Shown piece by piece: positions 68-49,306 of a stretch of DNA of 64,000 nucleotides. The first letter of the stretch is position 1. Each line of letters opens with the position of its first letter. The notes beneath the pieces were generated by a model, which was not told where the DNA came from, ran no database searches, and saw only the letters and a list, made by a program, of their open reading frames with translations. This DNA comes from Natrialba magadii ATCC 43099 (GTDB taxonomy: Archaea; Halobacteriota; Halobacteria; Halobacteriales; Natrialbaceae): assembly GCF_000025625.1 (NCBI RefSeq), contig NC_013924.1:124001-188000 (forward strand), given 5' to 3'. Made by a program: the position numbers and the translations under genes.

Positions 68-174
68 AAAGACAAATAGTTTTCTGAAGGTATGAATTTT
101 TGTGATTGCCTTTTGTCAACTGATTCATCTGTCCTGGCCGATCACTAATGCTCGCAAACCGTCCCTCAGTCCGT

Positions 175-202
175 GCCACATTCGCGCTGTGAGTTCAGCA
201 CG
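175..202. repeat. short direct repeat, copy A
   Basis: The run GCCACATTCGCGC, a few variable bases and TTCAGCACG occurs here and again at 839-866 in the same orientation. The two copies flank the AT-rich membrane-protein gene at 351-734. They could be remnants of a mobile-element end. No inverted repeat or coding sequence goes with them. Confidence 0.45.
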
Positions 203-350
203 TCTTGCTCAATCTGTTCTGTAGCTGGTAGAAAGCGCGTGCAACATCCAGAGGATACATACAGCGCTCCCTACTCAATACCGGAACCAATTGCCGTTGT
301 ATAACCAGTTTCAGGAGATTGAATGGTGGTTCACTGACCATTGTTTGATA

Positions 351-734
351 TTACAGTAGTGAAGACGGAGGGAATATCCCGATCTGAGCCCGGACACCAT
401 ACTCTATTACAGCAAGTACTGCTAATCCACTAATCAATAGTATCTGGATAATCGGCGAGAAATAAATAACAATTGAGGGTTCCACGCTATATCCATATAT
501 AACTTCGTTCACTACACCGAATTGTATATACAAACTAAACAGGAGTGGAAGTATAATACTGTACCGCAGGAATACATAAACTGGAGATGCGGCGACGATA
601 AAAATTAAAGCTGATAAAACAATGATGCGTAGTCCGGTACTGCCTGAGACCGCATACAATCCATAGACAGCAGTAGCTACGTGAACCAATCCAAAAATAA
701 CAGATAGTGCAAGTATTGTTCCTTCTTTATCCAT
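351..734 (-). CDS. hypothetical four-helix membrane protein
   Basis: This is a 127-residue protein with about four hydrophobic segments (roughly residues 5-28, 35-58, 60-80 and 88-110) and short polar loops. There is no catalytic motif, and I do not recognise the family. The gene is clearly richer in A and T than its neighbours and is flanked on both sides by a short direct repeat (175-202, 839-866), which suggests it arrived by transfer. The ATG at 734 is a reasonable start. It is coded toward the left edge with no operon partner. Confidence 0.55.
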   Translation of the reverse strand: MDKEGTILALSVIFGLVHVATAVYGLYAVSGSTGLRIIVLSALIFIVAASPVYVFLRYSIILPLLFSLYIQFGVVNEVIYGYSVEPSIVIYFSPIIQILLISGLAVLAVIEYGVRAQIGIFPPSSLL

Positions 735-838
735 AACGATGTAACATCAACGGATGTTGAATGGTTCTCGGCAGATATATACTTTCGTTATCATTTTACT
801 GTCCGATTTCATCTCGTCAAAATGGACTGGACTCTACT

Positions 839-40344: not shown

Positions 40345-41399
40345 TAGTAGACGTTAGAAATAATTGCTCACTTTTGGGACGGTGATCTGATCAATAGCTG
40401 TATCGATCGCTGTTGTAAGCTCGTTGAGTGAGCCAAAGAAACGATTGCTGAGTGCCGCTTGGAGCTGTCTCCAGCACTCTTCGACGGGATTCAGCTCTGG
40501 CGAGTACGCCGGCAATGTCACGAAGGCGAGGTCGTCACGGGCCGCCAGGTCCGTGACGGCCGACGCCCGAAAATACGGCGCTCCATCCAACACAATAATC
40601 AAGTCCTCTTCGAACTCATTACATGATGCAAGAATGAAGTGTTTTGCGTGATCAGCCGTTACATACTCTTCGAATCGAGCGAAAAAGCGATCACCGTCCT
40701 CGGTGATCGCACCTAAGAGACACGTCCAGTCGCGTTGTCCGGACAATTCAACAGACGGTCGCGTGCCGCGAGGAAACCACGCGGCACGCGGCTCAACTTG
40801 GACGGATTTCTTGGTTTGATCGATACAGACTACTGTGGCGTCCATTTCCCGCCGCTTTTTTTGAGTTCTTCGCGGAACGCTTCTTGTTCCTCAGCCTCAG
40901 ATTCGGCGGCTGTACGGCGTGGTTTTTGATAGCTCAATCCCGCTTCTTTGAGCAACCGCCGGCAGCTTGGGATTGAGTACTCGACATCGTAGGTCTCGGC
41001 GAGATGCTGCTGGACAAGCGCCGGCGTCCACGCCGGCGCGTCAAAACCAACTTCTTCAGGAGACCTGTGGACTGTTTCTTCGAACTCTTGTTGCTCTTTT
41101 TCTGAGAGCTTTCGTTTTCTCCCGGATCGATGAGCATCAGAAACGGCTTGCTCAAGCGGTTCGTCCGTATCGAGTCGCATGAGCCAACTGTAGATTGTTC
41201 GTCGACCAGTGTCGTGCCATTCCGCAAGTTCGGTCTGATTCACGCCGTTCTTGTACGCAATCGCCGCTAACAATCGTTGTGTCGGCTTAGCTCCCTCAAC
41301 CCTATCAAGGGCGTCTTGAAGTTCTTCGACGGAGATCTCGTCGAGATGATCCATTAGAAGTAGCAACAATCTATGGGCGGAAAGATCTAACGGTTACTA
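40345..41399 (-). mobile_element. IS630-family insertion sequence (1055 bp)
   Basis: The ends are TAGTAGACGTTAGAAA and, on the other strand, TAGTAACCGTTAGATC. The element is flanked by the dinucleotide TA (40343-40344, 41400-41401), the target duplicated by IS630/Tc1 elements. Length and the two-frame transposase fit the family. It sits inside MITE copy 2. Confidence 0.9.
40354..41369 (-). CDS. IS630 transposase in two overlapping frames
   Basis: The first frame (41369 to 40830, 179 residues) has a helix-turn-helix (NGVNQTELAEWHDTGRRTIY) and ends KSGGKWTPQ. The second frame (40845 to 40354) supplies the DDE core: D in VVCIDQTKKS, D in LIIVLDGAPYF and E in LNPVEECWRQL, with spacing normal for IS630. 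The second frame lies -1 relative to the first. A run of seven A (GAACTC then AAAAAAAGC, near 40852-40865) just before the overlap is a likely slip site, so a fused protein of about 330 residues is probably made by programmed frameshifting. Decay by mutation is the alternative. Confidence 0.85.
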
Positions 41400-41507
41400 T
41401 AGTTGCAGTTGTTACAATACCGCCGGTTGAAATATTGATCCCCAAGAAAGTTGCGTTGCAACCAGAACGGGAACAACGTTATTAGCGTCAGTCAACTGCA
41501 AACAGAT

Positions 41508-42593
41508 ATGAACGGCCGGGAGCCAGAGACGCTCATTTCAGCGGCTGTGAATACACTCCCGATCAACTTTGCAATCCTCGATAACGAGGGGACAATCCTG
41601 TATACAAATCGTGCATGGCAGGAGTTCGGCGAGGCGAATGATATCGACCTTCGGCCAGAAACAGTCGGCACTAATTATCTCAAGATTACCAAACAAGCGG
41701 AGACAGAGAGAGCCCAAGCTGCTGCCGCTGGATTGTCCGAGATTCTAACGGGAGAACGAGAACTCTTCGAGTTCGAATATCCGTGCCACTCTCCCGACGA
41801 ACAACGGTGGTTTCTCATGCGAGCAGCATCGTTCACTGACGGTAACCAGAGATACGTTGCTGTCGCGCATTTCGACATCACCAACCGGTACACGTACCAG
41901 CGGCAGTTAGAAGAGTCCAACGAACGCCTCCAGCAGTTCGCCTACGCTGCCTCCCACGACCTCCAGGAGCCGTTACGGATGGTCACGGGCTACCTCCGAC
42001 TGCTCGAGAATCGGTATAGCGACGACCTCGACGAAGACGCCGAAGAGTTCATCGAGTTCGCAGTTGACGGTGCCGAGCGGATGGAGGCAATGATTGAGGG
42101 GCTCCTGACGTACTCAAGAGTCGAAACACAGGGTGAGTCTTTCGATTCAGTTGATCTCGAGGCAGTACTGAACGATGTCTTGACGGATCTCAGCGTTCGA
42201 ATCGACGAAACCGGTGCTGAAGTCACCGCTGAACTGCTGCCGACTGTTGACGGTGACGCCAGCCAACTCCGCCAACTCTTCCAGAACCTGTTAGAAAACG
42301 CGCTTCAGTACAGCGGCGAGCAGAAGCCCCGAGTGTCAATCTCTGCGATGCGTAACGAAGACGAGTGGGAAATCTCGATCAGTGACGAGGGGATTGGTAT
42401 CGAGCAAGACGATGCAGACCGTGTTTTTGAGGTGTTACAGCGACTCCACAGTCACGAGGAGTACGAAGGATCAGGGATTGGCCTCGCACTTTGTCGACGG
42501 GTTGTCGAACGCCACGGAGGCGAAATTTACGTCGACTCCGAACCCGAAGAGGGAGCGACGTTTTCGTTCACGCTTCCGGCAACCAATACGTGA
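41508..42593 (+). CDS. PAS-domain sensor histidine kinase
   Basis: A 361-residue cytoplasmic kinase. Residues 8-130 form one PAS domain (NFAILDNEGTILYTNRAWQE), HisKA follows with the phospho-acceptor His150 in AASHDLQEPLRM, and HATPase_c has NALQYS, DEGIGI and GSGIGLALCR. Start ATG at 41508; a frame open from 41451 adds 19 residues of poor character. The kinase core is a close paralog of those at 20135-22495 and 33752-34863. No receiver protein is nearby. Confidence 0.9.
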   Translation: MNGREPETLISAAVNTLPINFAILDNEGTILYTNRAWQEFGEANDIDLRPETVGTNYLKITKQAETERAQAAAAGLSEILTGERELFEFEYPCHSPDEQRWFLMRAASFTDGNQRYVAVAHFDITNRYTYQRQLEESNERLQQFAYAASHDLQEPLRMVTGYLRLLENRYSDDLDEDAEEFIEFAVDGAERMEAMIEGLLTYSRVETQGESFDSVDLEAVLNDVLTDLSVRIDETGAEVTAELLPTVDGDASQLRQLFQNLLENALQYSGEQKPRVSISAMRNEDEWEISISDEGIGIEQDDADRVFEVLQRLHSHEEYEGSGIGLALCRRVVERHGGEIYVDSEPEEGATFSFTLPATNT

Positions 42594-42661: not shown

Positions 42662-45280
42662 TTACTCAGCGACCGGGAACTCGCTGTCGACCACCTGCGC
42701 TTTCAGTTCGGTGAGTGCCTCGCGCACACCGGCCCGCGTCGCGTAGGGTTGCGTGCTCTCGAGCAGTATCTCGCCGTCTGCGTCGACTAACTGCCACCCC
42801 CACCCGTCCGCGGTCGCACAGAGCTCGAAGGTGACGTTGTCGTGTTCGCGGACGGTTGCCTCATCGAGCAGTTCCTGCACCGCAGAGAGCGTGTCCCGGG
42901 CGGCCGAATCCGACTCGTGAGTGTTAGCCCCACTCGCAACGGGAGTGCCATCGGCGGCGAGCAACCGCCACCGCCAGCGACCGGACTCGGTCTCGACGAG
43001 GTCGAACGACGGCTCCCCGATGCCAATCGAATCGGCTAGCGGCGCAAGCCGGCGGACGTTCTCGAGAGCCGCCACGAGATCCGCCCGCGTGTCGACGACC
43101 TCACTCGAGTGGGCGCGCACGTCGCGCTCACGGGTGATGAGCTCCCAGCGCCACCCATCGGCGTCGTCGAGGCGCAGCGCTGCGTCGTCGATCGTGAAGA
43201 CCCTGGCGTCCGCAATGCCTTGCTGCAGGGTTTCAACTGCCCCCACTGCAGCCTCGCGTTCGGGATACGAGACCGTGGACGCTGCGAGTACCTCGCGGTC
43301 GCGGTCGAGTAGCCGCCAGTGCCAGTCACCGCTGTCGTAGAGCTGGACGGTGACCTCCCCGAGCGTGACGTCCTGGGCGGCGGCCGCTGTCTCACGGACG
43401 GTCTCGAGTTCGTCGGCGAGAGCATCCCGTGTCGGGAACGGGTCGTCGCCAACCGCGATGGTGTCGCCGGTCGGGTGCACGAGCCGCCAGCGCCAGTCGT
43501 GGCTCGCACTGAGCTGGAACGCGGGCTGGTCCATCGTCTGGACGTCGGCCGTGACGTGCTCGAGTAGTCGCTCCATCGCGCGGCGGGCGTCGTCTCGCGT
43601 CGGATAGGTCGTCGTCCCTGCGGCGAGGCAGGTGCCGGTGCGATCGATCAGTCGCCAGCCCCACTCTGCGTCTTCGGTGCCGAACAGTTCGAACGCCGCC
43701 GTCTCGATTTCCAGGACGTCGGCGTCGGGCGCCTGTTCTTTCAGGGTCAACATTGCCTCAGCGGCCTCGCTCCGCGAGGCGTGGTCTGTGTTGCTGTCGG
43801 CGAGGACGCTGCCGTCCTCGTCGAGTAACCGCCACCGCCACGTGCCGTCTCCGGCCTCGTAGACCTGGAACGCGGCGGTTTCGAACTCGATCAGCTCCGC
43901 CTCACGGGCCTGCTCGCGGATCCGCTCGATCGCGTCCGCGGCCGCCGCTGCGTCGGTGTAGGGGACGGTGCTCGCAGCGATAGCCTCGCGGTCTGCGGTG
44001 ACGAGGCGCCAGTGCCAGGCGTCGGTGGTTGCGTCCGGCTGCGTTTCGGCACCTGCATCCTCGCCGTCGATGGCTTCCGTGTCACCGCCGCTCCCGGTCC
44101 GAGACCAGTTCTCGCTCTCGGCCCCGGGATAGCACTCGTAGATTGCGTCGTCGACCGCGACGACGTCCGCGTCAGGGACGGCCGCGCTGAACGTCTCGGT
44201 CATCCGGTCCGTACGTTCGGGCTCCGAATAGCCGTCGGGGGCGCGGGCGAGTACGCGGTCGGTCGCGTCGACGAGTCGCCAGCGCCAGCCCGACTCGTCC
44301 CGGTAGTGTTCGTAGGTCGGCTCCCCGGCGACGGTGATGGCCGCCGAATCGAACGCCGGCAGGACCGATTCCGCTGCGGCCTCTGCCGCCCGGCGCGTCT
44401 CGAACGTCGCGGCCGCGTCGGCAATGATCTCGTCGCTCTCGTCGACGATGCGCCACGCCCAGCCGTCCTCGCGGTCGTACAGTTCGACTCCGGCGGTCTC
44501 GATGTCGAGCAGCGGCGCCTCCGTGACACGCTCGGCAAACGTCCGGGCGGCATCCGCGGCCTCATCCTGGCTCGTGAAGCCGCGCTCGCTCGTCGCCAGC
44601 ACGGTCCGTTCGTCGTCGACCAGCCGCCAGTGCCAGCCGTCGGGCTCTTCGCTGTAGGTGATCGCCGCGCCCTCGACCTCGACGAGGTCGGCTGTGGATC
44701 CGTGCTCTTGCAGTTGACTGACGGCCGACAGGGCGGCGTCACGGTCCTCGAACAACTGATTGCTCGTGCTGACCGCGGTGCCGTCAGCCCGCACCAGCGA
44801 CCACCGCCACTCCCCGTCGCGGGATTCCGTTACACGAACCATCGCTCGAGGGAGTTCCGTCACCCCAGCCGTCTCGATCGCGGTCTGGAGTTGTTCGGTG
44901 CGAGTGGTCGCGGCGGACTGCGTGTCAGCACCGACATCACCCGTCGCCAGGGGGGAGATCTGGACGACGTGCCATTGCCATCCACCGGTCTCGTCCTGAC
45001 GGACAGCGAGTTCGGTGCGCGGCGAGTCGTCACCGCTCGGGAGTACCGGCGCGGCGGACGGCTCGAGCTCGTCGTCCGTTCGGTACTTGCTCCCCGCCGT
45101 GATGCCGAGAGCGACCAGCCCAACGATGAGCAAGAGAGCGGTCGCGAGCACGCCGCTCTGGAGGTCCGGGCTCTGGGCGGGCCACCAGGCGGGAGCGGAC
45201 GCATCAGCCGAGATTCCGATGAGTAGCAGCCCCAGACCACCACCACCGGTTCGAAAACCGCGCTTGCGAACGAGGGACAT
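42662..45280 (-). CDS. membrane protein with about 13 tandem UPF0339/DUF1508-like repeats
   Basis: An 872-residue protein. Two N-terminal hydrophobic segments (residues about 13-28 and 43-61) should anchor it. From residue about 95, roughly 13 repeats of about 60 residues follow, each with a (G/D)xWxWRLV start, a short D-x-D/E turn, (V/I)LAxS, then Y..R..A...(A/I)E.(V/L). This is the beta-beta-alpha pattern of the small YegP/UPF0339 (DUF1508) domain, normally found in one or two copies. Trp-x-Trp pairs recur in every repeat. Start ATG at 45280. Function unknown; the repeats may form an extended surface or ligand-binding rod. Confidence 0.82.
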   Translation of the reverse strand: MSLVRKRGFRTGGGGLGLLLIGISADASAPAWWPAQSPDLQSGVLATALLLIVGLVALGITAGSKYRTDDELEPSAAPVLPSGDDSPRTELAVRQDETGGWQWHVVQISPLATGDVGADTQSAATTRTEQLQTAIETAGVTELPRAMVRVTESRDGEWRWSLVRADGTAVSTSNQLFEDRDAALSAVSQLQEHGSTADLVEVEGAAITYSEEPDGWHWRLVDDERTVLATSERGFTSQDEAADAARTFAERVTEAPLLDIETAGVELYDREDGWAWRIVDESDEIIADAAATFETRRAAEAAAESVLPAFDSAAITVAGEPTYEHYRDESGWRWRLVDATDRVLARAPDGYSEPERTDRMTETFSAAVPDADVVAVDDAIYECYPGAESENWSRTGSGGDTEAIDGEDAGAETQPDATTDAWHWRLVTADREAIAASTVPYTDAAAAADAIERIREQAREAELIEFETAAFQVYEAGDGTWRWRLLDEDGSVLADSNTDHASRSEAAEAMLTLKEQAPDADVLEIETAAFELFGTEDAEWGWRLIDRTGTCLAAGTTTYPTRDDARRAMERLLEHVTADVQTMDQPAFQLSASHDWRWRLVHPTGDTIAVGDDPFPTRDALADELETVRETAAAAQDVTLGEVTVQLYDSGDWHWRLLDRDREVLAASTVSYPEREAAVGAVETLQQGIADARVFTIDDAALRLDDADGWRWELITRERDVRAHSSEVVDTRADLVAALENVRRLAPLADSIGIGEPSFDLVETESGRWRWRLLAADGTPVASGANTHESDSAARDTLSAVQELLDEATVREHDNVTFELCATADGWGWQLVDADGEILLESTQPYATRAGVREALTELKAQVVDSEFPVAE

Positions 45281-45330
45281 TCGTATCCGATCCGGAGCAT
45301 CAACTGACCCATAAGAATGTCCACCTTACA

Positions 45331-45380
45331 CGGAAAACAGCGAGAGAGCCCACGAGTTCAGTCGTGGGAGGGAGTCAGAA
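45331..45380 (+). repeat. IS200/IS605 right-end-like relic
   Basis: GGAAAACAGCGAGAGAG precedes the hairpin CCCACGAGTTCAGTCGTGGG (45349-45368) and then AGGGAGTCAGA. This resembles the right ends at 33640-33669 and the motif at 32963. The following stretch to 45640 holds no gene. Confidence 0.45.
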
Positions 45381-45682
45381 GACGAGCACGGGCAGCGGCG
45401 AGCCGGTGTGGTCATCGTTCCGACAGCGAGTGTCGGAGCACTCGTCACTCACGGGAACAACGGGGGACTCTCTCGTGTCAACGGTACTCTACGCGTTGAG
45501 AAATTGCGTCATCGCGTCTGCTCCGTTCTGTATGCTATCCTTGTCCCCTTCTCGTGAGGTGTCCCTCAGTCACCTCGGAGACCCCACTGGTGAGAGCGAG
45601 TTCGCTACGCTGTGGGGCTAACTGTGGCGAAAATATCGGAATCGGAGCAAAGTTTATGACCGTAGCTGAATCTGCCTGTTGT

Positions 45683-46984
45683 ATGATACCAGATACCATT
45701 ACCCAGACCATCGAAGCGGAGGGTATCGGAGAGGTCATCGTCGAGTTCCCCGACATCGACGGGGTCGCCCGCTCGAAGCGTGTTGACGCTGATTACTTCA
45801 TCGAAAAATTCGAGACCGGCTTCTCGATGAACATGCTGCTTCTGGGCGTCTCCTCGATGACAGACGTCCCCGAAGGGAGCGGCCTCGGTGAGTCGCTCAA
45901 CTTCGCCGACGGAACCATCCACCCCGTTCCCGAGACGTTTCGCGTCGTCCCGTGGCGCGATGACACCGCCTGTGTCCGCTGTACGTACTCCTTTCGCGGC
46001 GACACCGCCGGCGCATACACCCGCGACCTGTTGGCCCGCGTCGTCGACAACGGACCGGACCTCGATATCGGCGTCGGAGCGGAACTGGAGTTCCACCTCC
46101 TCCGTGAGAACGAAGACAAGAGCAAAGACGAGATCGAACCGCTGACCGACGGGAACCACGAGTGCATCACGCGGGCGACAGAGGCAGCCACCGCTGTCTA
46201 CGATCACCTCCGGTCGTGGAGTGACGCAATGGACATCCCCTTGCAGGTGTTGATGCACGAGTTCGGTGCAGGACAGTTCGAGGTCCTCTTCGAACACGCC
46301 GGGCCGATGCGAACCGCAGACCGAGCGTTCACGTTCCGCGAACTCGTCAAGCGCGCTGCCGACGCGGAGGACCTCACCGGCACGTTCATGGCCGTCCCGT
46401 TCACCGACGCCTCCGCGAACGGCTTCCACCTGCACGTCTCGGCGTTCGACGGCGAGGACAACGCGTTCGCCGACGGCGATACTCTCTCCGCGACGGGGCG
46501 AGCGTTCGTCGGGGGGCTACTCGAGCACGCCGACGCGCTGGTGGCCCTCGGCTGTCCGACCATCAACTCGTTCAAGCGATTCACGCCGGGTAGCTTCTCA
46601 CCGTACACCCGGTCGTGGGGGTACAACAACCGCACGGCGGCCGTCCGCATTCCCGAATCCAAGCCGCTTCGAGTCGAAAACCGCATCCCCGGTGCCGACG
46701 CCAACCCGTACCTCGTCGTCGCGGCGACGCTCGCCGCAGGGTTTCATGGCGTTCGCGAGAACATCGACCCCGGCGAGCCCGTGGACGGTGACGCCGCGGG
46801 GCAGCGCCCACCGCTCGAAGATTCGCCGGAGGTAGCCCTCCGGGCGCTGGAGAACGACGATGTCCTGACAGAGGCGCTGGGCGAGGAGTTCATCCAGGCC
46901 TACACCGCGGTTAAACGCCGCGAACGAGAGAAGTTCAACGACCACGTCACCGACTGGGAACGGCGGTATCTCGGCGTCCTGTGA
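45683..46984 (+). CDS. glutamine synthetase family protein
   Basis: A 433-residue enzyme of the glutamine synthetase fold. Visible metal and substrate blocks: GAELEFHLL (first Glu pair), HEFGAGQFEVLFEHA, NGFHLHVSAFDG (His ligand region), NSFKRFTPGSFSPYTRSWGY leading to NNRTAAVRIP, and RVENRIPGADANPYLVVAAT. It is shorter and more diverged than the main haloarchaeal GlnA and lacks an adenylylation tyrosine block, so it may act on another amine, like gamma-glutamylputrescine synthetase. A TTTATGA box lies about 25-30 bases before the ATG at 45683, supporting that leaderless start over the longer frame. Confidence 0.88.
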   Translation: MIPDTITQTIEAEGIGEVIVEFPDIDGVARSKRVDADYFIEKFETGFSMNMLLLGVSSMTDVPEGSGLGESLNFADGTIHPVPETFRVVPWRDDTACVRCTYSFRGDTAGAYTRDLLARVVDNGPDLDIGVGAELEFHLLRENEDKSKDEIEPLTDGNHECITRATEAATAVYDHLRSWSDAMDIPLQVLMHEFGAGQFEVLFEHAGPMRTADRAFTFRELVKRAADAEDLTGTFMAVPFTDASANGFHLHVSAFDGEDNAFADGDTLSATGRAFVGGLLEHADALVALGCPTINSFKRFTPGSFSPYTRSWGYNNRTAAVRIPESKPLRVENRIPGADANPYLVVAATLAAGFHGVRENIDPGEPVDGDAAGQRPPLEDSPEVALRALENDDVLTEALGEEFIQAYTAVKRREREKFNDHVTDWERRYLGVL

Positions 46985-48133: not shown

Positions 48134-49306
48134 TTATCTTCGTATTAACTCCGATACTATAGTAGCCACTGCAAACCAATTCTGCACCACACAAACCGCC
48201 GCCTTCCGATCAGCGTGGTCTTGGAACCCACACTCTTGACAGCGGAACCGCTTCTTCTGCCTGTTCGACCGCGACGTATGCTGACACTCTGTCCGAGGAC
48301 ACCGCTGACTCGTGTATTCCGGGTCAACCTCATCTGACGGAATCCCTCTCCACGAAGCCTTGTACGATACCATCTCCCGGAGTGCAGCGAACGGCAAACT
48401 GTGCAGGCGGCGGTTCATTCGCGTGCCGTAGTCGATAGAGTCTCGCATGTCTTTGAGGTCTTCAAAGACAATGACAGGATCCGTGAATTGCGACACCCAG
48501 TCGACTACCTGACGCGATACCTTATGCAGACAGTCGTGAACGTAGTCGCGTTCCTCGGTCTGCACGACGGATTCAAACGCTGTTTGCCCTGCGTTCTGCA
48601 TCCGCTTCCGTTTCGTGAAGAACTCGTGGCGTCGTTCCTTGATTTCAGGGTACTCGATTACCACGGAGTCCAACATTGCCCCGTCTCGATTCATTGCTGT
48701 GAGGGCAATACAATCTTCATTCACGTCAACGCCGACGATCGTCTCTGCATCGTTCTTGCTGGCGACGTGGTGCTGTTCGTGTGTGACGGTGACGTGAAGC
48801 CGCCACTCGCTGTGTTTGTGAACGACTTCGGCGGTTCCAACCCGCCACTCGTCGTTTTCGAGAGCGGTTCGCACCCGGTCGAAATGATCAGGGCTGCCAC
48901 GAAGCTCTCCTTTGACGTGGTTTCGTGGGGCGGCACTGATGCGGAACCGAACCGTATCCTCGTCTTCGAGGAACAGTCGGTATCCTTCCCCGTGGTTCAT
49001 CACCATCGGGTACAGCTTGTCGATGTACGGGTAAGGCCGTCCCCAGCCGTCGTCTTTGTGTTCGTGGTAGGTTTCGATCTCGCCAAGTATTTTGTCAACA
49101 ATTTGTTGGCTGGTGTTCTTGACGTGGGTGGCGTTATCCACGACGACCGATCTAAGATCGTCCCAGTCCCAGCCGTGGCGGTCGAGACGGTTGACTTCGT
49201 TACGGATACGGCGGGCTTCGAGACACCCGTTTCGCAAGTCGTCAGGACTCCCCGTGTCGATGTGTAACCCGAATGAGAGGGTGTGGGTGAGTTCAGACGA
49301 CTGCAT
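48134..49306 (-). CDS. tnpB: TnpB-like protein (IS1341 subgroup)
   Basis: A 390-residue protein with D in IVGVDVNEDCIALT, E in IVFEDLKDMRDS, a zinc ribbon (CPRTECQHTSRSNRQKKRFR, then CQECG) and the last D in FQDHADRKAAVCVVQNW. All three catalytic acids are present. The final residues (FAVATIVSELIRR) are encoded by a MITE end (48157-48174) and its flank, so the native C-terminus has been replaced. Whether this alters guide-RNA production is unclear, since that RNA normally lies here. Confidence 0.85.
   Translation of the reverse strand: MQSSELTHTLSFGLHIDTGSPDDLRNGCLEARRIRNEVNRLDRHGWDWDDLRSVVVDNATHVKNTSQQIVDKILGEIETYHEHKDDGWGRPYPYIDKLYPMVMNHGEGYRLFLEDEDTVRFRISAAPRNHVKGELRGSPDHFDRVRTALENDEWRVGTAEVVHKHSEWRLHVTVTHEQHHVASKNDAETIVGVDVNEDCIALTAMNRDGAMLDSVVIEYPEIKERRHEFFTKRKRMQNAGQTAFESVVQTEERDYVHDCLHKVSRQVVDWVSQFTDPVIVFEDLKDMRDSIDYGTRMNRRLHSLPFAALREMVSYKASWRGIPSDEVDPEYTSQRCPRTECQHTSRSNRQKKRFRCQECGFQDHADRKAAVCVVQNWFAVATIVSELIRR
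48157..48174 (-). repeat. MITE half copy fused to the tnpB 3' end
   Basis: CTATAGTAGCCACTGCAA, identical to the left terminus of MITE copy 2, forms the 3' end of the tnpB reading frame. The rest of the MITE is absent. Confidence 0.65.

Follow-up and report, generated by a model that had tools for sequence, protein, structure and literature searches.

DUF1508 (UPF0339) is a module without known function, although it is present in E. coli and in many archaea. Its solved relatives hold one unit (HVO_2922, 6q2z) or two units (YegP, 2k8e). Another protein to consider is Cis12 (All3315, PDB 7b5h chain AD) from Anabaena, whose 610-1100 extension forms the wide connector between the contractile injection system (CIS) and the thylakoid membrane. 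The authors of this structure identified no TM domain in Cis12, and neither DUF1508 nor YegP is mentioned in the main text of their article (PMC8894136). In the open-licence literature that was searched, neither a 13-unit array nor the occurrence of DUF1508 in Cis12 was found described.

The protein described here is encoded by Natrialba magadii ATCC 43099, within the stretch of 64,000 nucleotides that was analysed (NC_013924.1, positions 124,001 to 188,000; hereafter the window). It shares unit sequence and fold with the DUF1508/UPF0339 family (YegP, HVO_2922) but, unlike the solved relatives, carries 13 position-specific units and an anchor. The array is a new form of a domain family that is known but so far unexplained, and the fold-back model proposed below is testable.

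The array gene and its thirteen units

The gene starts with ATG and is located, with all its features, in Table 1. It sits on a contig of 254,950 bases (C3) of a genome of 4.44 Mb in four contigs; we take it to be plasmid-borne and this replicon to be the second plasmid of N. magadii. Pfam DUF1508 (PF07411) matches the protein with an E-value of 1.1e-77 (256 bits, for a curated cut-off of 22), in 12 stretches at a permissive limit. The score with NCBIfam HVO_2922 (NF041908) is 264 bits for a cut-off of 90, but this equivalog covers single-domain proteins of about 54-60 aa, whereas the window protein, at 872 aa, carries 13 units. One of these units is matched by 6q2z, a solved protein with a single unit (E 1.8e-8). 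Weak Pfam matches to FtsQ_DivIB_C, MalF_P2 and DDE_Tnp_IS240 were attributed to the repetitive sequence.

The initial annotation had counted about 13 units, and all of them were found by a unit profile that drew solely on 12 units from the chromosomal paralogue (13 of 13, E 3e-6 to 9e-24). An extra match (aa 61-91, E 0.19) amounts to noise, and none of 500 residue shuffles matches the profile. The WxW motifs stand at aa 101, 158, 216, 274, 332, 422, 481, 540, 596, 653, 710, 769 and 827. Between proteins, same-numbered units share an identity of 0.58 vs 0.28 for different units (fixed profile columns), which indicates that the array did not arise by recent amplification of a repeat. Conservation is highest in unit 7, which is also the best match for most of the units found in relatives with one, three or five of them; these comparisons suggest that it is probably the least derived unit.

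Table 1. Position of the array gene and of its anchor, units and linker in the window
Feature	Residues	Window positions	Strand	Evidence
Whole gene, 13-unit DUF1508 array protein (short-anchor, type II copy)	872 aa	42662..45280	-	ORF, Pfam, NCBIfam and unit profile
Membrane anchor	13-62	45095..45244	-	Hydropathy: marginal TM aa 13-31, clear TM aa 44-62
Unit 1	87-143	44852..45022	-	WxW and unit profile; weakest profile match of the 13
Unit 2	144-201	44678..44851	-	WxW and unit profile
Unit 3	202-259	44504..44677	-	WxW and unit profile
Unit 4	260-317	44330..44503	-	WxW and unit profile
Unit 5	318-376	44153..44329	-	WxW and unit profile
Unit 6	377-466	43883..44152	-	WxW and AF2; linker splits strands one and two
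Variable linker within unit 6	387-420	44021..44122	-	Low pLDDT; spacing varies among relatives
Unit 7, most conserved, proposed apex	467-525	43706..43882	-	Same-position identity 0.81; invariant columns
Unit 8	526-581	43538..43705	-	WxW and unit profile
Unit 9	582-638	43367..43537	-	WxW and unit profile
Unit 10	639-695	43196..43366	-	WxW and unit profile
Unit 11	696-754	43019..43195	-	WxW and unit profile
Unit 12	755-812	42845..43018	-	WxW and unit profile
Unit 13	813-872	42665..42844	-	WxW and unit profile

The array gene is flanked by a convergent histidine kinase gene (41451-42593, +) and a divergent glutamine-synthetase-like gene (45554-46984, +), with a universal stress protein gene also nearby, and no operon partner is evident among these neighbours. 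Upstream of the gene (45285-45545), stretches of 27-44 bases resemble six other places in the same genome and are perhaps remnants of mobile elements. The window also includes a TnpB-like gene (48134-49306) and a transposase in two overlapping frames (40354-41369, -), with a DDE_3 part and a helix-turn-helix part, which may be a frameshifted copy or a case of programmed frameshifting. A phage origin of the array was rejected, 50,697 phage records giving 0 matches; in the plasmid records searched, matches were confined to 5 records and were weak or partial.

Family, unit number and gene neighbourhood

The chromosomal paralogue has 1001 aa, four TMs and 13 colinear units, and is 49% identical to the window protein over the full length. 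Between both genes, dN is 0.38 and dS, near saturation, is 1.04, which fits a window gene kept under purifying selection. The window protein is a diverged, short-anchored second copy of the haloarchaeal DUF7139-DUF1508 family. Like the type I (four-TM) proteins of this family, it possesses 13 colinear position-specific units, but it is devoid of their DUF7139 four-TM domain, the first two TMs being absent, and lies outside the coenzyme A (CoA) locus. DUF7139 (PF23600) matches 23 of the 27 aligned members and gives no match in the window protein; the possibility of a paralogue-type N-terminus hidden upstream was discarded, as the first 190 aa of the paralogue found nothing in window 45000-46000. 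In a tree of 59 rows, built by a quick method and showing long branches for the window copy and others, the six short-anchor copies included, the window copy among them, form one group (SH-aLRT 100).

The array family is wider and more regular than the initial annotation reported. At E <= 1e-40, 89 of the 119 Natrialbaceae genomes carry an array, and arrays are also found in Haloferax, Halosimplex, Halomarina, Halorubellus, Salinarchaeum and others. DUF7139 itself is present in 231 of the 243 genomes of the order, most of the matches listed being in frames of about 250-400 aa. The number of units is near-fixed at 13: exactly 13 units were counted at 77 of 80 Natrialbaceae loci and, in one frame, at 51 of 56 loci of named haloarchaea, two sets that overlap in genomes. 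At L184 of the first set, which is the same gene as L073 of the second, 12 units were detected and unit 1 is eroded. Also in the first set, L193 is split into two frames with 5 and 9 unit hits; in the second, the arrays of L077 and L097 are split, the first part of L095 is out of frame (its N-terminus being found outside that frame), and L093, at a contig end, gave no frame. In the four-TM copy L114:3037-4392 (-) of genome G277, the remaining exception of the first set, an in-frame deletion has taken out units 3-11, and a single open frame holds what is left, units 1, 2, 12 and 13.

Multi-unit DUF1508 proteins from 12 genomes have 1, 2, 3, 5 or 13 units. The five-unit proteins (L037, L041) have DUF7139, DUF1508 units and a linker as in the rest of the family, but their units are little diverged and the linker lies between units 1 and 2. 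A rule of odd numbers above two units was dropped, given this different layout and the few independent families. Besides the two arrays, the only DUF1508 match in the N. magadii genome is an Amphi-Trp domain protein that ends in a single unit (L010:3716-5380, -).

All 68 type I loci of Natrialbaceae have a pantoate kinase and/or a phosphopantothenate synthetase gene within about 2.5 kb (both genes for 54, the kinase only for 12, the synthetase only for 2). The order pantoate kinase, 13-unit membrane protein, phosphopantothenate synthetase (e.g., L009:10564-15823) is conserved on Natrialbaceae chromosomes. Since both enzyme genes are close together in 9 of 14 array-free genomes, the array sits inside an operon-like pair. 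This neighbourhood makes a role of the four-TM form in CoA synthesis possible. Downstream of the arrays of Halosimplex L088, L089 and L096, genes were read by eye as those of a putative ABC transporter ATPase and permease.

Membrane anchor, predicted fold and coevolution

Hydropathy confirms the membrane anchor. Of the two hydrophobic segments that had been proposed, aa 44-62 is a clear TM (mean 2.6) and aa 13-31 only a marginal one (1.19). In four-TM relatives, the loop between TM2 and TM3 is richer in Lys/Arg than both outer loops (66 of 66 examined), with a mean net charge of +2.7 vs -0.3 and -1.5, from which an N-in/C-in orientation is predicted. Furthermore, most short-anchor copies carry basic residues (Lys/Arg) directly after the last TM. 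Together, these charges suggest that the array is probably in the cytoplasm; the topology signal of the window copy itself, with its single clear TM, is weaker.

The AF2 model of the full chain (52 sequences) has a pLDDT of 81.9 and a pTM of 0.66, at which the global shape of the chain is unsure. Each unit shows the order strand-strand-strand-helix-strand, or most of it. In unit 6, the linker separates the first strand from the second and is predicted to be disordered at about aa 393-417 (pLDDT < 50). Unit 7 has a pLDDT of 79-88, for 84-98 in its neighbours, which fits an unpaired unit. By VIA, the model has a YegP-like fold: YegP (2k8e) aligns over 110 residues (Z 13.9, 2.2 A, range aa 377..585) and 6q2z over 54 residues (Z 7.2, rmsd 2.9). 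With the Pfam match, this upholds the assignment of the units to DUF1508/UPF0339 made in the initial annotation, neither a lack of match nor a different fold having been found. No other fold family stood out in the VIA comparisons of the full chain and of a fragment made of units 7-10; matches of the type of reverse transcriptase or TolB (Z < 6) were regarded as widespread small folds.

Pairing of units was read from the VIA alignment ranges, which give the first and last aligned residues only. Judging by its length, the match of the two YegP repeats over 377..585 fits units 6 and 8 of the model, with unit 7 skipped. Further matches, compact and 54-57 residues long, run over 260..697 (units 4 and 10), 317..642 (5 and 9) and 145..815 (2 and 12). 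Some rows depart from this pairing: 2k49 (467..546) connects unit 7 with unit 8, and prolyl oligopeptidase (319..670) connects unit 5 with unit 10. The isolated fragment of units 7-10 has a pLDDT of 73.6 and a pTM of 0.33, whereas the blocks of the same residues average about 91 in the full chain, and YegP matches one unit only of the fragment model (48 residues, Z 6.3).

Coevolution between units was scored as mutual information with APC, linker columns left out, against a null of unit relabelling; many of the sequences used are also those on which AF2 draws. In 66 sequences, the unit pairs with i+j=14 form the top antidiagonal (8.3 vs a mean of 4.6 per thousand, p 1.5e-4). This antidiagonal stands at 7.9 vs 4.9 in 93 four-TM sequences (p 0.004), where it is also enriched for units 3-11 only (p 0.003), and has a p of 0.015 in all 108 sequences. 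For the inner units of these 108 sequences, sums 14 and 15 taken together are not significant (p 0.11). In the offset-resolved analysis, i+j=14 gives 2.46 vs 2.02 (p 0.008) and i+j=15 equals it at 2.47; across the runs, i+j=15 scores almost as high as i+j=14. The sum of 14 could correspond to a paired layer and that of 15 to the next layer. The leading residue pairs in the four-TM set are 369-630, 126-845, 268-679 and 230-726.

The family profile matches Cis12 (E 1.5e-5) and Foldseek aligns the model with 7b5h_AD (E 2.7e-6), the matched stretch being residues ~627 to 1161 (profile, VIA), which lies close to the 610-1100 extension. The VIA comparison with 7b5h gives a Z of 7.7 and an rmsd of 19.4 over 187 residues, so the likeness is limited to local units. 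Further matches of the family profile, to the Algoriphagus baseplate proteins 9wsz/7aeb, are weak (E 0.35). The Cis12 extension, which serves as membrane connector, looks like a tandem DUF1508-like array, remote kin of the window array by profile and fold, but it belongs to a baseplate protein and has fewer recognisable units. An insertion that returns both its ends to the baseplate would suit a hairpin array.

A proposed fold-back array and the alternatives

The reading that we favour, with about even chances of being correct, is a cytoplasmic array folded back on itself, in which unit i would pair with unit 14-i and unit 7, at the tip, would hold a docking site. The pairs 1-13, 2-12, 3-11, 4-10, 5-9 and 6-8 would resemble the repeat pair of YegP; the array would have both its ends at the membrane, and unit 7 would stay unpaired. 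The number of units would be fixed at 13 because the loss or gain of a unit would break the register of six nested pairs. Such a stiff stalk or scaffold could hold the conserved tip (units 6-8) off the membrane for docking of a partner. Most simply, this partner could be another DUF1508 module, whether unit 7 from another chain or an HVO_2922-type domain with one unit; the Amphi-Trp protein with its terminal DUF1508 unit is a candidate in the same genome. For the four-TM orthologues, the gene neighbourhood would suggest a tie to CoA synthesis. We infer this fold-back from the VIA matches that bridge i and 14-i, the coevolution at i+j=14 and the poor folding of the units 7-10 fragment. The natural deletion in L114, which leaves 1, 2, 12 and 13, also counts for nested pairing. 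The near-tie of i+j=15, the 2k49 and prolyl oligopeptidase rows and the pTM of 0.66 count against it, and so do the five-unit relatives, which need no nested pairing. A bolder form, to which we give somewhat less credit, is a self-zipped palindrome of six YegP-like pairs whose unpaired conserved apex would capture a cytoplasmic DUF1508 partner, with 13 locked by register and the wide connector of Cis12 following the same hairpin principle.

The initial annotation had thought of an extended surface rod, an idea that loses ground, or of a multivalent binder, which the protein may be. An extended string of DUF1508 units, as beads or neighbour pairs, acting as a multivalent binder and with 13 fixed by common descent only, would agree with the small size of units that mostly occur alone or in twos, with the shared ancestry of all array sequences, and with a pTM that permits flexible placement of the units. 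This is unlikely, because same-numbered units stay distinct across families, compact structural matches bridge distant units, four neighbouring units form no YegP pair in the fragment model and coevolution prefers i+j=14/15; both the model and coevolution speak for a fold-back of the chain. That the protein is an adhesin or rod of the cell surface, as the anchor and the long repeat region could evoke, is rather improbable given the loop charges of all 66 four-TM members, which predict N-in/C-in, the Lys/Arg that follow the last TM in most short-anchor members and the presence of just 2 N-glycosylation sequons in the repeat region of the window protein.

There are two further proposals. The array could tether or regulate pantoate kinase and phosphopantothenate synthetase, as its insertion in this operon-like pair and the 68 adjoining type I loci would allow, but none of the 12 loci of the short-anchor clade, the window copy included, is beside either gene, the arrays of Haloferax, Halosimplex and Halomarina are located elsewhere, and gene order may be inherited without function; such a role is improbable. 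As for the membrane connector of a haloarchaeal CIS, suggested by the matches in the Cis12 extension, hardly any weight can be given to it: among 41 genomes, 15 of the 25 with an array have no Phage_sheath_1 match, so arrays occur in CIS-free genomes, and membership in such a system was rejected on this co-occurrence. Besides, no CIS genes were found among the scanned window genes near the array, and PMC11566945 names another anchor candidate.

The array links DUF1508 to the archaeal CoA gene pair, and through it the connector domain of a solved injection machine, so far unexplained, gains a family relation. The unit number, held at 13 across haloarchaeal families, suggests that DUF1508 is used as a pairing block, and the model provides a testable rule as to which units would pair, why there would be 13 of them and what the tip may bind.
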